Assembly: GCA_017642885.1 (NCBI GenBank)
Contig: JAEPOM010000008.1
Span: 93,716-157,715 of the forward strand
Reading direction: 5' to 3'
Length of the DNA: 64,000 nt
Source of the DNA: Henriciella sp.
GTDB taxonomy: Bacteria > Pseudomonadota > Alphaproteobacteria > Caulobacterales > Hyphomonadaceae
The notes under the pieces were generated by a model that was given only the letters and a program-made list of their open reading frames with translations, did no database searches and was not told the origin of the DNA. The position numbers and the translations under genes were made by a program. Numbering within the stretch: position 1 is the stretch's first letter; the number at the start of each line of letters is the position of its first letter. Shown in pieces: positions 33,403 through 62,274 of this stretch.

Positions 33403-33951
33403 TTACTCCGAGGTGACAATGGAGAGATCCACTTCGCTCCGCTGCCCTCCACTGACGATGCGGGGCCAACTCCCCGGTTTGCCTCTATCTCTTCGTCTCT
33501 CATAAAGAATTTCATACTGTTCCGCGTCAGTATTCTCGAACTGGAAGACCCGCTTTGGATTGTCTGGATTCACGCGGCAAAACTTAGGCACGATCGTCGG
33601 TGCCTTGTATCTGAAAGTGCCGAACACCAGGATTTTGCGCTCTAGATGGTTCACACCGACCATCAAATCATCATCCAGAGGCTCCCTCAGGCCTCCGACG
33701 CAATTTGAGAGACTGAGGGCCACCGTCATCGTTTTCGTTTCCAGATCGCGAGTGACCGATGCGGTTGGTGCTATTAGTAAGAATTCGCTTCTTGCGGGCG
33801 GTTTAGGCGGTCCGAAGTTGATTTCTCGCTTGGTCATCGGGCCCCGGGCTTGTTCAGGGGCAGCCTCTGTCTGTCCCTCCACCTTTAAACAGGCCGCTAT
33901 AAAGACAGTTGCGACGAAGAGAATTGCACTCAGCGGGATCCGACGTTTCAT
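33403..33951 (-). CDS. Hypothetical lipoprotein
   Basis: MKRRIPLSAILFVATVFIAACLKVEG lipobox; no family recognised. Confidence 0.55.
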   Translation of the reverse strand: MKRRIPLSAILFVATVFIAACLKVEGQTEAAPEQARGPMTKREINFGPPKPPARSEFLLIAPTASVTRDLETKTMTVALSLSNCVGGLREPLDDDLMVGVNHLERKILVFGTFRYKAPTIVPKFCRVNPDNPKRVFQFENTDAEQYEILYERRRDRGKPGSWPRIVSGGQRSEVDLSIVTSE

Positions 33952-33977: not shown

Positions 33978-34568
33978 CTAATCGAGGCAGATCAGTTCGC
34001 CGCTGTTTGGGTCGATGTCGAGATTTTGGCAGTCTGGATCAACCGTGGGCGGTTCGTCTCCGCCCGGTGCCGGTGCCGGTGCTGTGCTGCCTTCGGCGGG
34101 GATCAGGAAATAGCTATAGGGCGGGATGCTCGCCACGTTCACGGCGATGCGGCCATCTGGCTGCACTTTCATTGTTGCCGTTCCCAGCAGAGGCAAGTCC
34201 TGACTCGTATACTCTGTGGCGCTAATCTGCCGAAAATCCTTCCCTATCACCATATTCGGACGGATCTTTAGCGTCATGGCATGCGTCCAAGGGTCGAGCG
34301 CATAGCTACGTCCACGGTCGATCCGAATGCGTTTCCCGAGCGTGGAGATTGTATAATCACCATCGATTGGAAGCGCCTGGGTCGGTGCAACCTGCGTTTC
34401 ATATGGAAGGAAAGCATCCATCTGGGGGATGCCCGCAGCAGCCGCGAATGCATCGCCCATCGCACCGGCCGCAATGGCTTCGGTGCCCGCACATCCGGCA
34501 GTCGCGAGCAGGCCGGCGGCGGCGATTCCGGCATACAGTCTCGGGGTCAGATTCGTTTTTGCGCTCAT
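33978..34568 (-). CDS. Hypothetical lipoprotein
   Basis: AGIAAAGLLATAGCAGTEA lipobox; Pro-rich C-terminus APAPAPGGDEPP. Confidence 0.6.
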   Translation of the reverse strand: MSAKTNLTPRLYAGIAAAGLLATAGCAGTEAIAAGAMGDAFAAAAGIPQMDAFLPYETQVAPTQALPIDGDYTISTLGKRIRIDRGRSYALDPWTHAMTLKIRPNMVIGKDFRQISATEYTSQDLPLLGTATMKVQPDGRIAVNVASIPPYSYFLIPAEGSTAPAPAPGGDEPPTVDPDCQNLDIDPNSGELICLD

Positions 34569-34640
34569 GATAGAGTCTCCCTCAGCATTATGTGTCTGAG
34601 GAGAGATTACGAGTTCGACGCGGGAGGGATATGGGGGCGA

Positions 34641-36680
34641 CTACCCAATCTCTGAGGTGTGTTGCACTGGGATATGGCACCGTGCTGTCGTGCCAGCGCC
34701 AGGCGTCGAGATTAGCTCAAACGAGCCGCCCAACTCGTCCAGAGCATCTTGAACGATTGAGAGCCCCAGGCCGGATCCATTAGATTGTGCGCCGCTAACA
34801 CCGCACTGCATAACCTGTTCGATTTGCTGGCGCGACAGGCCTGGACCCGTATCACTAACTTCAATTGTGACAGCGCCGTTGCTCTTCTCAGCGGACACAG
34901 TCACCGCGCCATCAGATGTGTAGCGAATAGCGTTGGCAACAAGATTGCTGACAGCGCGCATCAGCAAAACAGGGTCTGCGGAAATCGTATCATCAAGGTC
35001 GAGGTGGCGATTCAGATCGATGCCCTTGGCGGCGGCCTCGCTAACGAACATCGCGACCACGGCATCCAGTACCAACGTAATCGGCGTTTCATTTTCTTGG
35101 TCTTGTGAGCCTGCAGCTCGTTTCGCGGCCGGCAAGTTTTCGTTTGCGAGGGCCTGCAGATACTCAAACGCTTCTGATAAAGGTTTCCGCGCTGCGCTGT
35201 CTGCTGGCAGGTTTTCATTCAACGCCGCCTTCAATGAGCTGAGTGGTTGCAGAATGTCATGGCTCACAGATTGTAGACGATTGCGGTAGTCAAACGCCCT
35301 TAACCGAGCCCGTTCATAAGCAGTTTGGCTGTCCCGTAATGCCTCGTTCAATCGAAGCTTTTCGCGGGTCGCTCGAAGATCCGCCACCAGTGCGGCGTCT
35401 CGCTCATATCGGATCGCAGCGACATTCTGAGCAATTGCGATGGCGAAGGCGATGGTCTCGATCGTCACCAAAATGCGCATCGTGCCGGGAATTCCACCCT
35501 GCTGAAATCCAAATGTATCGATGAAGACTGTAAAGGCCGCAGCCATGGTCAAGAGCACAGCGCTCGCTGTAAAGATCGTCCCCCCCTTTTCATTGTTGGC
35601 GACGGCCCAGATTCCAACCACAGCGTAGAGCGCAACGCTCGAAACGCGTGCTGAAAAAGACATCACGACAATGCTGTCGCGCGGAAAGATCCCGAACAGC
35701 AGATGCAAAATTGAGACAAGAAAGATGAAGTTGATCGCACCGATCATGATTCGATCGATGATGGGGGCATTGGGTTTTAGATCGAAGATATTACGGCTGA
35801 GAAGCAGAAGTCCTGCATAATTCCAGAGATAGACCGCGTCCGTGAGATGCGCTGTGACCTGGTTTTTTGTCGGCACCAGGAATTGATCAATATAGCCCTC
35901 AACCGACCAGACCGATAACAGGCTAACGGTTAGAAAGACGCCGAGACTGACACTCAGCCGCCATCCCGTCAGAGACCATGTCAGGATAGTGAGAAAGAAC
36001 GCCGCCAGCATGAAGCCATAGAACAGCGCCGACCAAACGAGTTCATACTTGTCGGCCAGCTCAAAGCTACTGGGCGCCGCCACGCGGATCGGCAGCATCG
36101 AAATGTAGAGCCCTTCATAGTGAACATAGAGTTCTGTTTGTTCACCGGGCTGCAAAACCACATCCGCGACCAGGATGCGGTGATTAACGGGTCTGTTCGA
36201 GAAGGGGGCGTCGTAGGAATAATCGAGAAACTGATTGACCGTTCGCCCCCCATCGGGGGTGAGGTAAAGCTTCATCCACTTGAAGGCGACCCGTCGGGTG
36301 TCCACTCGAACGGTGATTGGTTCGTTTTTGATGTTGTGCAATTTCACGCGCAGCCAGGCTGGATCAGCGAGAGAGCCAAAACTGACATACCGGGTCTGCA
36401 GTTTCTGCCAGTCATCGCTCCCGCTAACGTCCAGGATGGTTGCGTCTGCGTCGGCCGGGTACAGCGCTTCACCATATTCTCCCAGGAAGGCGCTGGAGAA
36501 CCCTTCCAATGGTAATGTGATGACGCCATCATTTGGCGGAATGACGCCCTCGCGCGTTGATAAAAGCGAGCAGATGAATAGCGAAATCACAGTCACCAGG
36601 ACCAGCGTCACCGGGACTCTAAAAACGGGCGCGCGAAAGTCAGACCATGACCGGGGCAAAAAAAGTAGACGCTCTACCAT
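34641..36680 (-). CDS. Sensor histidine kinase with 7TMR-DISM-like extracytoplasmic/TM region
   Basis: N-terminal SFGSLADPAWLRVKLHNIKNEPITVRVDTRRVAFKWMKLYLT (DISM-like), multiple TMs, H-box SVSHDILQPLSSLKAAL, ATPase NLVANAIRYTSDGAVTV...DTGPGL...GSGLGLSIV. Confidence 0.87.
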   Translation of the reverse strand: MVERLLFLPRSWSDFRAPVFRVPVTLVLVTVISLFICSLLSTREGVIPPNDGVITLPLEGFSSAFLGEYGEALYPADADATILDVSGSDDWQKLQTRYVSFGSLADPAWLRVKLHNIKNEPITVRVDTRRVAFKWMKLYLTPDGGRTVNQFLDYSYDAPFSNRPVNHRILVADVVLQPGEQTELYVHYEGLYISMLPIRVAAPSSFELADKYELVWSALFYGFMLAAFFLTILTWSLTGWRLSVSLGVFLTVSLLSVWSVEGYIDQFLVPTKNQVTAHLTDAVYLWNYAGLLLLSRNIFDLKPNAPIIDRIMIGAINFIFLVSILHLLFGIFPRDSIVVMSFSARVSSVALYAVVGIWAVANNEKGGTIFTASAVLLTMAAAFTVFIDTFGFQQGGIPGTMRILVTIETIAFAIAIAQNVAAIRYERDAALVADLRATREKLRLNEALRDSQTAYERARLRAFDYRNRLQSVSHDILQPLSSLKAALNENLPADSAARKPLSEAFEYLQALANENLPAAKRAAGSQDQENETPITLVLDAVVAMFVSEAAAKGIDLNRHLDLDDTISADPVLLMRAVSNLVANAIRYTSDGAVTVSAEKSNGAVTIEVSDTGPGLSRQQIEQVMQCGVSGAQSNGSGLGLSIVQDALDELGGSFELISTPGAGTTARCHIPVQHTSEIG

Positions 36681-36744
36681 GCTGCAATCTGATCAAAGCG
36701 CGAGCAAGCTGTCATGGGGGAGGATACCCAATTTTGCAATTCAA

Positions 36745-37380
36745 TCACAATTGAGTCTGCTCTGCGATCAGGCCTTCCCTGAGCGCATAAGCGATGAGTT
36801 CTGCGAGCGAGCTGACGCCGACTTTTTCCATCAGACTCGCACGATGCTTTTCGACCGTGCGCGGGCTAATGCTCAAGCGTTCGCCAATACCCGAATTTTG
36901 ATACCCCATTGCGATTAAGGACAGCACTTCACGCTCTCGGCTTGTCAGCGCCGTCTTGCCTGTTGTTTCTTCCAGGATGGTGAGAGCATCTCGCGCGAAA
37001 TAGCGGCCACCTTGCAGCAGAGTTTCGAAACAAGTTTTCATCTCAGTTGGACAACACGATTTGAGCAGAATGCCCTCAACTTCAGCGTCGAGCCAGCTGG
37101 CGAGGACACCGGCTGACGTGAACCCGGTCAAGAGAACGACTGACGTCTGTTTGCTCCAGCGCCGAGCTTCCGCCAGTACTTCGATGCCCTTTGCGTGGGG
37201 CATTGCCGAATCCAGGACAAGCAGGTCCGGCTGGTGCTGTTTGACCGCGCTGATCGCGCTCAAACCATCGGCAACTTCCGCCGCGATGGTGATCTGACCG
37301 ATCTCAGCCAGCACATTCTTCACGCCTTCACGAACGATAGCATGATCGTCAGCAAGAACTGCACGATAAGCACTCGTCAT
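36745..37380 (-). CDS. NarL/LuxR-family response regulator
   Basis: YRAVLADDHAIVREGVKNVL; LLVLDSAMPHAKGIEVL; LTSREREVLSLIAMGYQNSGIGERLSISPRTVEKHRASLMEKVGVSSLAELIAYALREGL. Confidence 0.9.
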   Translation of the reverse strand: MTSAYRAVLADDHAIVREGVKNVLAEIGQITIAAEVADGLSAISAVKQHQPDLLVLDSAMPHAKGIEVLAEARRWSKQTSVVLLTGFTSAGVLASWLDAEVEGILLKSCCPTEMKTCFETLLQGGRYFARDALTILEETTGKTALTSREREVLSLIAMGYQNSGIGERLSISPRTVEKHRASLMEKVGVSSLAELIAYALREGLIAEQTQL

Positions 37381-37477
37381 CGCCACAATAACCTCATCCC
37401 TCTTCAAATCACGATTGCAGGTTTCTCTTGAGAAAACAACAGAATACGATTTCTGAAATGATCGGCGGCAGCAAAAT

Positions 37478-37493
37478 TGGGTAGTGCTACCCA
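37478..37493. promoter_or_regulatory. Candidate operator in the divergent RR / Cys-repeat-protein intergenic region
   Basis: Perfect 7-bp-arm inverted repeat TGGGTAG-TG-CTACCCA. Confidence 0.45.
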
Positions 37494-37562
37494 TTTTGTT
37501 TCCCCCACTTTACCGGCATCGTGTGAGTCTAGAAATGGCTTATTCTGGAGGGTCAGAACGAT

Positions 37563-39794
37563 ATGCGTATGCCGGTATTCCTACTAATCATCTTTAAAGT
37601 GCTAGCTTTGGCTTTTGTCTTTAGCGCCCTGCAAGAACAGTCAGCTTACGCAGATCGCGGCCTGAACGAGACGCCAAGAAGTTCATGGGGTTTTGAATGC
37701 GAAAAGGGACTCGCGCCCGGAACGTACGACGGGAAACGAGCCTGCGTTAAATGCGGTGGTCGAAATCAACCCGCCTGCGAGCCTCGGCGAGTTGGAAAAC
37801 AGTGCACAGCTTCATACACGCAAAAAAATAGCGCCGGCATTTGTGAACCCAGAGGCGGCAACAACCAACCCAAGCTGAAGGGCATCGGCTATGATTGTCG
37901 GCCCGGTTACAATGTCGATTCAAATGGCAAATGCCAAACCTGCGGCGGAGTAGGCCAGGTTGCCTGCGAGTCGACGCGTCCAGGCGATCGCTGCACGGCA
38001 GCTTATACGCAGAAGAATAGCGACGGCATTTGCGAAGCCAGAGGCGGCAATAATCAGCCCAAGCTGAGAGGCATCGGGTATGATTGTCGCCCCGGTTACA
38101 ATGTCGGTTCAAATGGCAAATGCCAAACCTGCGGCGGCGTGGATCAAGTTGCCTGCGAAACTACGCGTCCAGGCGATCGCTGCACGGCAGCTTATACACA
38201 GAAGAATAGCGCCGGCATTTGCGAAGCCAGAGGCGGCGAAGGTCAGCCCATCATGACGGGTATCGGATTTGATTGCCGGCCGGGGTTCAACTGGCAGAGA
38301 AATTCAGACGGCGACAAGTACTGCACGGCGTGCGGTGGCGCCGGCCAGGTAGCTTGCGAAACTACCCGTCCCGGAGAACGATGCACAGCGGCTTACACTC
38401 AGAAAAACAGTGAAGGAATTTGCGAGGCTAGAGGCGGAAATGGACAGCCAACATTGACGGGATTGGGATTCGAATGCCGTCCTGATTTCAATTGGCGGAA
38501 ACACGGAGATGGCGCGAAGCGTTGCGAGCCGTGCGGTGCTCAGGGCCAACCTAAATGTGAAGAGTTTCGTGATGGTCCAAAATGCGGATCAGGTTTGAAG
38601 GTCGATTCCAGACCGGGTCGGAATTATTGCGTGGCTGATGAGCCAGATGAATTCGATTTGGTCTACGAGGCGTCCAAAGACAAGTTGCGCGAGGTTGGCG
38701 ACAATATCTTCGACGCGATTGTTCCGATGGCGTTTGAGATTCACAACGATCAGGACACCCTGGAGGACATAAATGACAATGACGAAGATGCAGCGGGTGA
38801 TCTTGAAGACGACAGCCGCTCATTTTCGGAACTTGTAGACTTTAAGACCTTGTCTGTTGGCGCGACGGCAGAGGCCAACTTCATTATTGGAGTTGGTGTA
38901 GAAGGCGGCGTCGCTTTTGACATCACCGACCAAGAAAAGGCGATGAAATGGTATTCCTCGTTCGCTGTCAGCAATCAACTCGGATATGGCAGCTCATACG
39001 GCGCCGTCCTCGGGATCTGGAACGTGCAAAACAATCAGTTGGGTGCTCCAGTTTCTGAAGGTGGTGCGAAGTCGGTCGGAGTCATTTTCGATGTAAGGAC
39101 GTGGCTCGAATTTGCCGGAAAGAAATCGACGTTTTTAACGGACATAGGAACACAGAGCAGCACAGCTACCCTATTGATCGGTGTCTGGTTTGAACGAGAC
39201 GAAGATGTCACTGAATATGAGGATCTGAAATTCACCGGCTTTACATTATCTCCCGTACTGGGTGTCGGGCAAAATGTTGCCGGGACGACTTACGTAGAGG
39301 CTACGACGTTCCAATCGCGTGCCCCGGTGACGAATGAGACGGAGTTGAACAATCTGTCTTCGTGGAAATTGGCTGGCGGCGGTGACCTTCAGCGGTGCTA
39401 TGGACAATGTTGGGTGGACGGTCTCGGCCGCGAGCGTCCTGACTATTTGCAGACCTATCCGGTTATCGACGATCCAAGTCTGCTCAACGTTTCGACTTCC
39501 GGGACCCGCGCCCGGACGCCCTCCGCGAATTCTTCATCCGATGTTCGGTTGGCTGGTTCCCTTTGGATGTTCGAGGTGCAGGGCAACAAATTCTATCTCA
39601 AAGTCGTTGATGCCGCCTCTGGTAAGATCGTCATCCAGAACGTGAATTCGACAAATCGAGTTACGTATACTCAAACCAGCTCTGGTGAATATGTCGCCAA
39701 TTCTGGCCAACGCCTGTCATTTGAGAGTGCATCAGCGGGCGAATGGATTGCCGCAGACGGTTCGCGAAAGTACCCAATGTCTCGTGTGAACTAG
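37563..39794 (+). CDS. Exported Cys-rich tandem-repeat protein of unknown function
   Basis: Signal peptide ...FSALQEQSAYA; ~4.5 repeats of CxxCGGxxQxACxxxRPGDRCTAAYTQKNSxGICEARGGxxQPxLxGIGYDCRPGYN; separate Gly/Val-rich C-terminal region. Confidence 0.85.
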   Translation: MRMPVFLLIIFKVLALAFVFSALQEQSAYADRGLNETPRSSWGFECEKGLAPGTYDGKRACVKCGGRNQPACEPRRVGKQCTASYTQKNSAGICEPRGGNNQPKLKGIGYDCRPGYNVDSNGKCQTCGGVGQVACESTRPGDRCTAAYTQKNSDGICEARGGNNQPKLRGIGYDCRPGYNVGSNGKCQTCGGVDQVACETTRPGDRCTAAYTQKNSAGICEARGGEGQPIMTGIGFDCRPGFNWQRNSDGDKYCTACGGAGQVACETTRPGERCTAAYTQKNSEGICEARGGNGQPTLTGLGFECRPDFNWRKHGDGAKRCEPCGAQGQPKCEEFRDGPKCGSGLKVDSRPGRNYCVADEPDEFDLVYEASKDKLREVGDNIFDAIVPMAFEIHNDQDTLEDINDNDEDAAGDLEDDSRSFSELVDFKTLSVGATAEANFIIGVGVEGGVAFDITDQEKAMKWYSSFAVSNQLGYGSSYGAVLGIWNVQNNQLGAPVSEGGAKSVGVIFDVRTWLEFAGKKSTFLTDIGTQSSTATLLIGVWFERDEDVTEYEDLKFTGFTLSPVLGVGQNVAGTTYVEATTFQSRAPVTNETELNNLSSWKLAGGGDLQRCYGQCWVDGLGRERPDYLQTYPVIDDPSLLNVSTSGTRARTPSANSSSDVRLAGSLWMFEVQGNKFYLKVVDAASGKIVIQNVNSTNRVTYTQTSSGEYVANSGQRLSFESASAGEWIAADGSRKYPMSRVN
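37743..38630 (+). repeat. In-gene tandem repeat, unit 189-201 bp
   Basis: Unit starts (TGC) at 37743, 37932, 38121, 38322 and 38523: spacings 189, 189, 201, 201 nt, then a partial unit. Confidence 0.9.
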
Positions 39795-49714: not shown

Positions 49715-50743
49715 TCAGGATCGTCTGAGGTCAGTTTTCAACTTCCCTGGGCTATGACCGGTCCATCTTTTGAATGCGCGGGAAAACGAACTTGGGTCTG
49801 AAAACCCAACTAGGTAGGCCGTTTCATTCACGGAGACTTTTTCGCCTTCCAAGTAATGCCGTGCCATTCGATGACGTAGCTCATCGAGAGTAGACTCAAA
49901 TGTTGCGTTTTCGGATTTGAGCTTCCGATAGAGCGTTTGCCGAGAGACCTTCATTACATCCGCGATTGACTGCATCTGAATGTCACCCGTGTGCAGGATC
50001 GGTAACAAATGCTCTTCCACTTTTGAGCGAACTGTAGCGTTCGTTTTCAGCTCAGACAGTAGGCGCTCCGCATGTTTGCTGAGTACGCCGAATACGTAAC
50101 GGGGTTTAGGCCAAAGCTGCAATGTGGCCCAAGCGTCGTCCACCAACATCGCGTTTCGGGTTGAGTCGAATACAACCGGACATTCCAGTATGCGTTCATA
50201 TTCATCCGCATAACTTGGTTTAGCGTGTGTGACATGAGCGCTTTTGACCAGTCGTAAATCGCTAAAGTTTCGATTGTAGCCACAGATGAAACGCCCCAAC
50301 GTGGACTCCGTGAGTTCCGGAAAGTCATTTGGGTTTTTCCGCGTATCTTCAATCCACAAACCATCGCTTCGCCGGACGAGTTTGAAGCGGTCTTCTCCCT
50401 CGGAGACGCCTTCGACTTCTATGACCAATCGGTGATAGCGGTTCATTTGCTCGAACGCTTCTAACATCGTGGTCGCTGCGTGAGCCACTAGTCCGACAAT
50501 AGAGAGCTCTTCAAACTTCACTACAGCGCCAAATTCGAGCGCCAACGAGGGTGTGCTTGAGAGCTTCTTACCCGACCGCATCAATTGCTTGAAAACGGGG
50601 AAAGGCACGCGTCGCTCAGGGTCGCTCAGATCAGAGGTTTGCAATCCGGCGCATCGCATCAATTCGGTTCGGTCCGCGCCGAAAGAGACGGCGAGCTCAA
50701 TTAGAGCAGCCGCGTATCCTGCAGATACCGTTGCATGACGCAT
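49715..50743 (-). CDS. AraC family regulator (OruR-like)
   Basis: IADVMKVSRQTLYRKLKSENATFESTLDELRHRMARHYLEGEKVSVNETAYLVGFSDPSSFSRAFKRWTGHSPGKLK. Confidence 0.88.
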   Translation of the reverse strand: MRHATVSAGYAAALIELAVSFGADRTELMRCAGLQTSDLSDPERRVPFPVFKQLMRSGKKLSSTPSLALEFGAVVKFEELSIVGLVAHAATTMLEAFEQMNRYHRLVIEVEGVSEGEDRFKLVRRSDGLWIEDTRKNPNDFPELTESTLGRFICGYNRNFSDLRLVKSAHVTHAKPSYADEYERILECPVVFDSTRNAMLVDDAWATLQLWPKPRYVFGVLSKHAERLLSELKTNATVRSKVEEHLLPILHTGDIQMQSIADVMKVSRQTLYRKLKSENATFESTLDELRHRMARHYLEGEKVSVNETAYLVGFSDPSSFSRAFKRWTGHSPGKLKTDLRRS

Positions 50744-60657: not shown

Positions 60658-62274
60658 ATGAAATTCAACTTGTTCATGGTATCCGCTGCGGCCGCCGCGC
60701 TGACCGTTCTTGCCGCTTGCTCAGGCGGCTCCAGCGGCGACTTGCCTGCGGCCAGCTCTGGTTCGCCACCACCTCCGCCGCCTCCGCCTCCTCCTCCTCC
60801 GCCACCGCCTCCTCCGCCACCGCCCCCGAGCGGGGGGACTATATCGCTACAAGCCCTGGGGTTGTTGGATGGAAATTCTGGGGCAGGACAAGAAATATCG
60901 CGCGGCGTAGCTGTGGATGCTAGCGGTGCTGTCTACGTCGCAGGCGGGACATCCTCGCCTGACTTTCCAGCCAATGTTGGAGACACGTCCGTTGCCACCG
61001 GTGGCAGCACGCTTGGTAGTGAGGGACCGTTGGATGCATTCGTCGCGAAAATAGATACAAATGGTCAATTGGAATGGGCGACCATCATTGGAGGCCCCAA
61101 CTATGATCGTGCTTATGGAATTTCAGTAGATTCTACGGGGATTTACATTGCGGGCCGCGCCGGTGACGGGTTTCCAACCACAAGCGGTGCGCTGCAAGAA
61201 AACTTCGGAGGCGATAACGTTGCCAACAGCAGGTATGGCCAGCAAGACGGATTCGTAGCTAAGCTGTCGCTCGATGGAACGAGCGTTCTTTGGTCAACTT
61301 ACTTTGGCGGACCTGGCGCTGGTGTTATTCGCGAACTCGATGTGGATGATCAGGGGCGCCCGTATATCGGTTTTAGCTCCGAAGGGGGCAATCCTCACAT
61401 TACGGCCGATGCACATAGATCAACACGACTGGGTATAACTGACGCCGGGTTTGCCGTTCTTTCCGCGGATGGGCAAAGCACCGAGTATGCGACATATCTC
61501 GGCGGAACGAGTGTGAATGCGAGTTTCGGAATGTTTGGTTCGGCGCCATCAATTAGGGTGGCACCGGACGGCGGGACGTTCCTGGCATTCTTTGACAGTG
61601 CACCGGATGTTCCGGTTACCGCTGGCGTATACCAGCCAACCCTGGCGGGTGAACTAGATATGGTGGTGGCGCGGTTTACCCCGCAAAGAACGCTGGATTG
61701 GATGACCTATTTGGGCGGTAGCGGCAATGAGCTTAACGAAACTCACAGCTTGACGATCGACGACCAAGGCCGCCCCGTCGTGTCTGGTGAAACCGATTCA
61801 TCGGACTTTCCAGTGACATCCGGTGCCTATCAGAGCGGGCAGGGCGGCAGAGGAGATGGATTCGTTTCAATTCTGAGCGCTTCGGGGGAGAGTTTGGTCG
61901 CGTCGACGTATTTCGGTGGTTCGCGTTTCGACAGCTTTGAGGGAATCGCTACCGCTCCAGACGGGTCTATAATTTTGACTGGAGCCACTGATTCGACCAG
62001 TTTTCCAGCCTCAACGGACGCCGCGCAAACTTTTAATGCTGGCGCCAGAGATGGCCTAATTGTTCGGTTCTCGAGCGATTTGTCATCGGTTTTATACTTT
62101 ACGTATCTGGGCGGTAGCCGAAACGAGTACACGCATGACATCGATGTGAACCAAGCTGGGATTATAGGAATCGTCGGAAACTCAAATTCCAACGACTTCC
62201 CTGCTGTAAATTCGAGCGACACATCCGTGCAAGGCGACTATGGCGCAATATATGGTCGGCTCACTTCAAACTGA
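60658..62274 (+). CDS. SBBP-repeat beta-propeller lipoprotein with polyproline linker
   Basis: LTVLAACSGG lipobox; 21 consecutive Pro; repeats such as LDWMTYLGGSGNELNETHSLTIDDQGRPVVSGETDSSDFPVTSGAYQ. Confidence 0.83.
   Translation: MKFNLFMVSAAAAALTVLAACSGGSSGDLPAASSGSPPPPPPPPPPPPPPPPPPPPPSGGTISLQALGLLDGNSGAGQEISRGVAVDASGAVYVAGGTSSPDFPANVGDTSVATGGSTLGSEGPLDAFVAKIDTNGQLEWATIIGGPNYDRAYGISVDSTGIYIAGRAGDGFPTTSGALQENFGGDNVANSRYGQQDGFVAKLSLDGTSVLWSTYFGGPGAGVIRELDVDDQGRPYIGFSSEGGNPHITADAHRSTRLGITDAGFAVLSADGQSTEYATYLGGTSVNASFGMFGSAPSIRVAPDGGTFLAFFDSAPDVPVTAGVYQPTLAGELDMVVARFTPQRTLDWMTYLGGSGNELNETHSLTIDDQGRPVVSGETDSSDFPVTSGAYQSGQGGRGDGFVSILSASGESLVASTYFGGSRFDSFEGIATAPDGSIILTGATDSTSFPASTDAAQTFNAGARDGLIVRFSSDLSSVLYFTYLGGSRNEYTHDIDVNQAGIIGIVGNSNSNDFPAVNSSDTSVQGDYGAIYGRLTSN
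60766..60828 (+). repeat. (CCN)21 polyproline tract
   Basis: 63 nt of CCA/CCT/CCG/CCC codons, pyrimidine-biased low complexity. Confidence 0.95.

Follow-up and report, generated by a model that had tools for sequence, protein, structure and literature searches.

Several described systems resemble parts of the locus analyzed here. Regulons of the NarL, UhpA and RcsB type likewise combine a receiver and GerE regulator with an inverted element near the presumed -35 region; in the case of NarL the arrangement is 7-2-7, unlike the 7-4-7 element of our cassette. The recognition helices of LuxR-type regulators are generally alike. Small repeated cysteine modules in exported proteins are familiar from Ephrin_rec_like (PF07699) and growth-factor-receptor-type modules. 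The DISMED2, 7TM and HATPase domains of our kinase connect it with 7TMR-DISM kinases of the RetS/LadS type and with proteins such as NicD, and calcium or carbohydrates have been reported as ligands of the 7TMR-DISM domains of Pseudomonas (PMC7695008, PMC8544897). Polymorphic toxin systems (PMC3482391) are similar in that a modular protein is exported and a variable domain is exchanged between relatives.

The window is a 64,000-nucleotide stretch of Henriciella sp. DNA. It contains a gene for a modular cysteine-rich protein, present in one copy in the window genome (3.66 Mb, 71 contigs), which a first-pass annotation had described on its own. The cassette surrounding this gene (kinase, regulator, lipoprotein and a shared promoter element) and the swapping of its middle domain are new beyond that annotation, and a literature search found no paper on this cassette. 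The cassette comprises the following genes:

33403-33951, minus strand: small exported cassette protein of no known family (sequence comparison)
33978-34568, minus strand: conserved lipoprotein of no known family, the cassette marker (lipobox ..LLATAGC read by eye)
34641-36680, minus strand: sensor histidine kinase with 7TMR-DISMED2, 7TMR-DISM_7TM and HATPase_c domains (Pfam)
36745-37494, minus strand: LuxR/NarL-type response regulator with Response_reg and GerE domains (Pfam), divergent from the exported gene
37563-39794, plus strand: exported modular cysteine-rich protein, 743 aa with 32 Cys, ATG start

The kinase matched DISMED2 with 55.5 bits (cut-off 22) and DISM_7TM with 33.9 bits (cut-off 29), and it adjoins a regulator with receiver and output domains, the composition of a two-component system. 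Given the reported sensing of calcium or carbohydrates by DISMED2 domains in Pseudomonas, the kinase is likely to respond to an environmental cue. PADLOC, searched for anti-phage defence, gave only a generic match to the ATPase part of the kinase. The listed ATG of the regulator falls inside the promoter element, so that the true start is probably at 37380.

Linkage of these genes is close. Of 105 Hyphomonadaceae genomes, nine encode the lipoprotein, each with the gene of the exported protein close by. Eight of these nine also have a kinase/regulator pair within the cluster; in G015 none was seen in the 18 kb read there. In G095, which belongs to another genus, these four genes recur in a rearranged order; the kinase of this genome (L055 12382-14416) appears as two overlapping open reading frames, possibly owing to a frameshift or an assembly error. 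Identity of the lipoprotein to the window copy amounts to 82-88% in five genomes, while that of the exported proteins is 29-39% except for G011 (67%). One relative, G003 (L025/L024), has a lipoprotein 83% identical to that of the window, a regulator with a receiver of only about 42% identity and a different gene order. This cassette looks as if kinase, regulator and exported protein had been replaced together, the promoter element staying. The product of 33403-33951 lacks about 90 internal residues which are found in the orthologues of G015, G016 and G026, and by eye it shows a distant likeness to a neighbouring protein of about 290 aa in relatives. Homology of the lipoprotein domain to the C-terminal domain of the exported protein was considered and rejected (hhalign probability 1.4%).

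The starting comparison of sequences upstream of the exported genes revealed TGGG-N8-CCCA at a similar position. Five upstream regions yielded the 18-bp consensus TTGGGTA-N4-YMCCCAT, located in intergenic gaps of the cassette. The window contains three copies in the cassette:

37477-37494: 18-bp element TTGGGTAGTGCTACCCAT, between the regulator and exported genes, 68 bp before the ATG of the exported gene
36714-36731: 18-bp element, 33 bp before the ATG of the histidine kinase gene
34631-34648: 18-bp element, 62 bp before the ATG of the lipoprotein gene

A scan of the cassettes with the consensus found the element in further intergenic gaps as well; it was missing from four homologous loci without the lipoprotein. 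Since the consensus came from five promoters, independent support is provided by the remaining sites, the spacing and the comparison with the background. Genome-wide, the nine cassette genomes contain 27 sites with the full pattern, 24 in the cassette and 3 elsewhere, and the 96 family genomes without cassette contain 30 scattered sites, a background of about 0.3 per genome. The looser pattern TGGGT-N7-CCCA occurs at four places in the window (three in the cassette and one at 49793), compared with 0.16 expected. The distance between the 3' edge of the element and the ATG is 33-34 bp for most kinase genes and 61-63 bp for most genes of exported proteins and lipoproteins. A -10-like box resembling GCTANNAT, better than in 500 of 500 shuffles, is located 17-19 bp past the element. 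Such an arrangement is in keeping with an activator site that overlaps the -35 region. Among the cassette regulators, identity is 87-100% in the recognition helix and as low as 38-42% in the receivers; because such helices are similar among LuxR-type regulators in general, this test is modest and supporting only. An upstream element shared at fixed spacing and enriched over background is what we found for a candidate regulon of the adjacent regulator. Regulation by the adjacent two-component system is the best supported step of our proposal and appears well supported by sequence; binding of the regulator to the element and phosphotransfer are presumed steps within it.

A repeated mobile or structural sequence travelling with the cassette could also produce sites that cluster there and are rare elsewhere. 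We consider this highly improbable, since conservation is limited to the half-sites while the centre varies, the distances to the start codons and to the -10-like box are fixed, and all 21 of 21 aligned sites have the same polarity toward the genes, with TGGGTA distal and CCCAT proximal. In addition, a site precedes an unlinked lipoprotein gene by 33 bp in two genomes. In the window genome this is the one site outside the cassette, situated before the gene of a 167-aa lipoprotein (here the distal lipoprotein), and in G016, a genome of the same genus, a site lies at the same distance from its orthologue; the outside site of G056 falls within a coding gene. As the number of outside sites equals background, the case for a distal target rests on the shared gene and spacing. 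The distal lipoprotein adjoins a 666-aa exported protein which by eye is heme-peroxidase-like (L081 5943-8563, G000:C33:208000-224000), and the same pair is present in G016 (L082). The distal lipoprotein was rejected as a marker of the cassette, because weak relatives are also encoded in genomes without it.

The exported protein has the following layout, all on the plus strand:

37563-37655: signal sequence, aa 1-31 (...SAYA/DRG), read by eye
37686-37751: N-terminal half-module with the C3/C4 pair only (Cys 46 and 61), from the sequence and alignment with relatives
37752-37940: unit 1, 189 nt, a 4-Cys module (37752-37850) and a 2-Cys module (37851-37940)
37941-38129: unit 2, 189 nt, a 4-Cys module (37941-38039) and a 2-Cys module (38040-38129)
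38130-38330: unit 3, 201 nt, a 4-Cys module (38130-38228) and a 2-Cys module with a 4-codon expansion (38229-38330)
38331-38531: unit 4, 201 nt, a 4-Cys module (38331-38429) and a 2-Cys module with a 4-codon expansion (38430-38531)
38532-38636: last 4-Cys module (partial unit), 105 nt, followed by the middle domain
38637-39338: middle domain A, about 230 aa, an N-terminal helix and then a Gly-rich beta-like pattern
39546-39791: small C-terminal beta-rich domain, 82 aa

The first-pass annotation had proposed an exported protein whose successive units measure 189, 189, 201 and 201 nt and end in a partial one, with six cysteines per unit, GGxxQ in both halves and a distinct C-terminal part. We recovered each of these features: reading by eye revealed a hydrophobic N-terminal signal sequence ending in ...QSAYA/DRG, the units start at 37752, 37941, 38130, 38331 and 38532 with cysteines and motifs as described, and a middle and a C-terminal domain follow the array. 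Independently of that reading, Tandem Repeats Finder reported a period of 189 with 2.2 copies and 90% match at 37818-38237. The repeat region contains the pattern C-x7-C-x8-C-x10-14-C five times, whereas 2000 residue shuffles gave 0.07 on average and at most 2. The 63-67-aa unit is a true repeat, but not the basic one: alignment with relatives demonstrated that each unit is a pair of modules of about 32 aa, an alpha module with four and a beta module with two cysteines, and that an extra C3-C4 half-module sits N-terminal of unit 1.

Eight genomes supplied 60 distinct modules, of which 43 contain four cysteines and 17 lack exactly C1 and C2; any other set was found in none. All modules of G056 have four cysteines, alternate modules are without C1 and C2 in the window genome, G011, G016 and G026 (G011 departs from this once, at its start), and a single module of this kind is present in each of G003, G015 and G020. 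As C1 and C2 are lost together, the simplest reading is that disulfides form within each module, C1 with C2 and C3 with C4; a bond from C4 to the C1 that follows is unlikely because the module preceding each C1-less module retains its C4. A cysteine pairing can in this way be predicted from the sequence alone. The C4-x-x-C1 pairs at the module junctions do form CxxC motifs, as would be expected if the cysteines bound metal or performed redox chemistry instead of forming structural disulfides. We regard this as very unlikely, given that C2 disappears whenever C1 does although the preceding C4 stays, that the cysteine number is even in 60 of 60 distinct modules, and that exported proteins meet an oxidising compartment. 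The 2-Cys modules belong to two sequence types (WG..N.KAWP..RIGF.C and RGG.GQ...GIGYDC), which makes it probable that C1 and C2 were lost jointly on more than one occasion. An AlphaFold model of three modules, calculated from the window and L021 sequences only, was weak (mean pLDDT 63), and a Foldseek search with this low-confidence model gave no match at E <= 0.001.

Recent unit duplication had also been proposed, with the 4-codon expansion shared by the last two full units as its sign. One recent event is evident, but in another register and not between these two units. It joins beta1-alpha2 (37851-38039) and beta2-alpha3 (38040-38228), 189 nt with 90-91% nucleotide identity per half, compared with 71-75% per half and 73% overall between units 3 and 4. 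The expansion is indeed present in both units but is older than supposed, as the last unit of G011, G016 and G026 also carries it; the unit 4 protein sequence is nearest to the last unit of G011 (82%). Copy number, suggested as a check, does differ, with four full units in the window genome and three in G011. Elsewhere in the window, at 60764-60828, we noticed a short 15/21-bp tandem repeat (CGCCTCCGCCACCGC) which possibly encodes a proline-rich stretch.

The family of the exported protein had not been recognised from the sequence, and database searches agree: Pfam, NCBIfam and PADLOC contained no curated family match, and PDB yielded neither a sequence nor a profile match to a solved structure. 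For Ephrin_rec_like (PF07699) the window protein gave no match above the Pfam gathering cut-off; two distant homologues of domain A, L007 (E 0.018, 15.3 bits, cut-off 23.1) and L010 (E 0.28), also remained below it. The CGGxxQxxC...C...C module with joint C1/C2 loss was absent from other genomes in an even sample of 385 genomes of the class. None of the proteins tried had a homologue on viral contigs, phages or plasmids; a Streptomyces plasmid gave one weak match, to the Cys region of L010.

Homologues of the exported protein were present in 12 of the 200 genomes searched, the window's own included. The profile of middle domain A matched 10 of 105 family genomes, G095 among them, and just a few distant sequences in the class and phylum samples. 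In G016, G026 and G056 the Cys modules are kept and the middle domain is an unrelated domain B; homology of A and B was rejected by profile comparison (probability 0.5%). The exchange of A for B occurs between flanking parts common to both types of protein, and G016 and G026 retain the C-terminal domain beside B. This C-terminal domain is shared with G011, G016 and G026 and distantly with G003, G015, G020 and G095. In G095 the exported protein has no Cys modules; its domain A precedes three segments similar to the C-terminal domain. The absence of modules here indicates that the Cys stalk is dispensable. Given that the middle domain is A or B and the Cys array is variable or absent among relatives, the protein is a mosaic. 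Outside the family, distant homologues show other combinations: in G449 (L035) a single CGGxGQxxC motif is joined to an A-like region and to LysM, and in G665 (L036) and G424 (L033) Ephrin-receptor-like Cys modules accompany domain A.

An exported protein that is modular, has a swapped domain, diverges strongly (29-39% identity in most pairs) and is encoded beside a conserved lipoprotein could be an antagonistic effector of the polymorphic-toxin type with the Cys array as delivery stalk and the lipoprotein as immunity partner. An immunity protein, however, should change together with the toxin domain, and the lipoprotein is 86% identical between the window genome (G000, domain A) and G016 (domain B); this constancy beside swapped domains weakens the toxin reading. 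Moreover, the swapped domain is not C-terminal, no toxin family was above cut-off for A or B (the best Pfam hint was Ntox25 with E 0.21 in one member) and PADLOC gave no hit. In our view a toxin function is distinctly unlikely. We judge it unlikely, too, that the exported protein is a periplasmic, signal-binding co-receptor which modulates the kinase by binding to its DISMED2 sensor domain. The close linkage of the exported protein and kinase genes and their apparent co-regulation would fit, as would the situation in G003, where the kinase/regulator pair and the exported protein are both divergent beside the conserved lipoprotein; but the homologues of G040, G046 and G049 have no linked kinase, regulator or element, and the middle domain has been replaced wholesale in G016 although the kinase is 71% identical.

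Taken together, we lean slightly towards the exported protein being the main product of an envelope cassette under two-component control, a stalk presenting an exchangeable binding domain. According to this model, the 7TMR-DISM kinase would sense an extracellular cue, a sugar or an ion, and phosphorylate the adjacent LuxR-type regulator, which would bind TTGGGTA-N4-YMCCCAT just upstream of the -10 box and turn on the genes of the exported protein, the lipoprotein and the kinase as well as its own. The exported protein would leave via Sec, and C1-C2 and C3-C4 disulfides would staple each module of about 32 aa, resulting in a stable extended stalk. Carried by the stalk, the middle domain (A in the window, B in relatives) would bind a ligand on the cell surface or in the matrix, and the lipoprotein would serve as envelope partner. 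A disulfide-stapled stalk acting outside the cytoplasm is the most likely function, and the earlier rod or adhesin interpretation is plausible; the sign of export is the signal sequence read by eye, and passage beyond the periplasm to a surface location is presumed. Two observations count against the model: the exported protein of the G095 cassette has no Cys modules, and the homologues of G040, G046 and G049 have no linked kinase, regulator or element. Ligand binding is a guess, because the family and PDB searches detected nothing of known function related to the middle domain, which, together with the C-terminal domain, was poorly modelled by AlphaFold (mean pLDDT 35, a weak model from the window and L021 sequences only).

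With this analysis, a repeat protein that had been anonymous becomes part of a testable system with a defined regulator and DNA element and a short list of targets without known family. The near-constant lipoprotein beside an outright-exchanged middle domain suggests that what the cell displays to its environment is under changing pressure. The chances are about even that the locus represents a previously undescribed surface system with patchy distribution in the Hyphomonadaceae, which combines a dedicated sensor and regulator, a near-constant lipoprotein, a fast-diverging exported protein with disulfide-stapled modules and exchangeable middle domains, and one 18-bp promoter element. It differs from the polymorphic toxin systems in that the variable domain is internal and matches no toxin family and the lipoprotein does not co-vary. 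Compared with Ephrin_rec_like modules, the CGGxxQxxC...C...C module of the window is a separate type. Unlike those of NarL/UhpA/RcsB-type regulons, the targets are envelope proteins without known family and the element is polar, and in contrast to RetS, LadS and NicD the kinase is coupled to a LuxR-type regulator and an exported-protein cassette.
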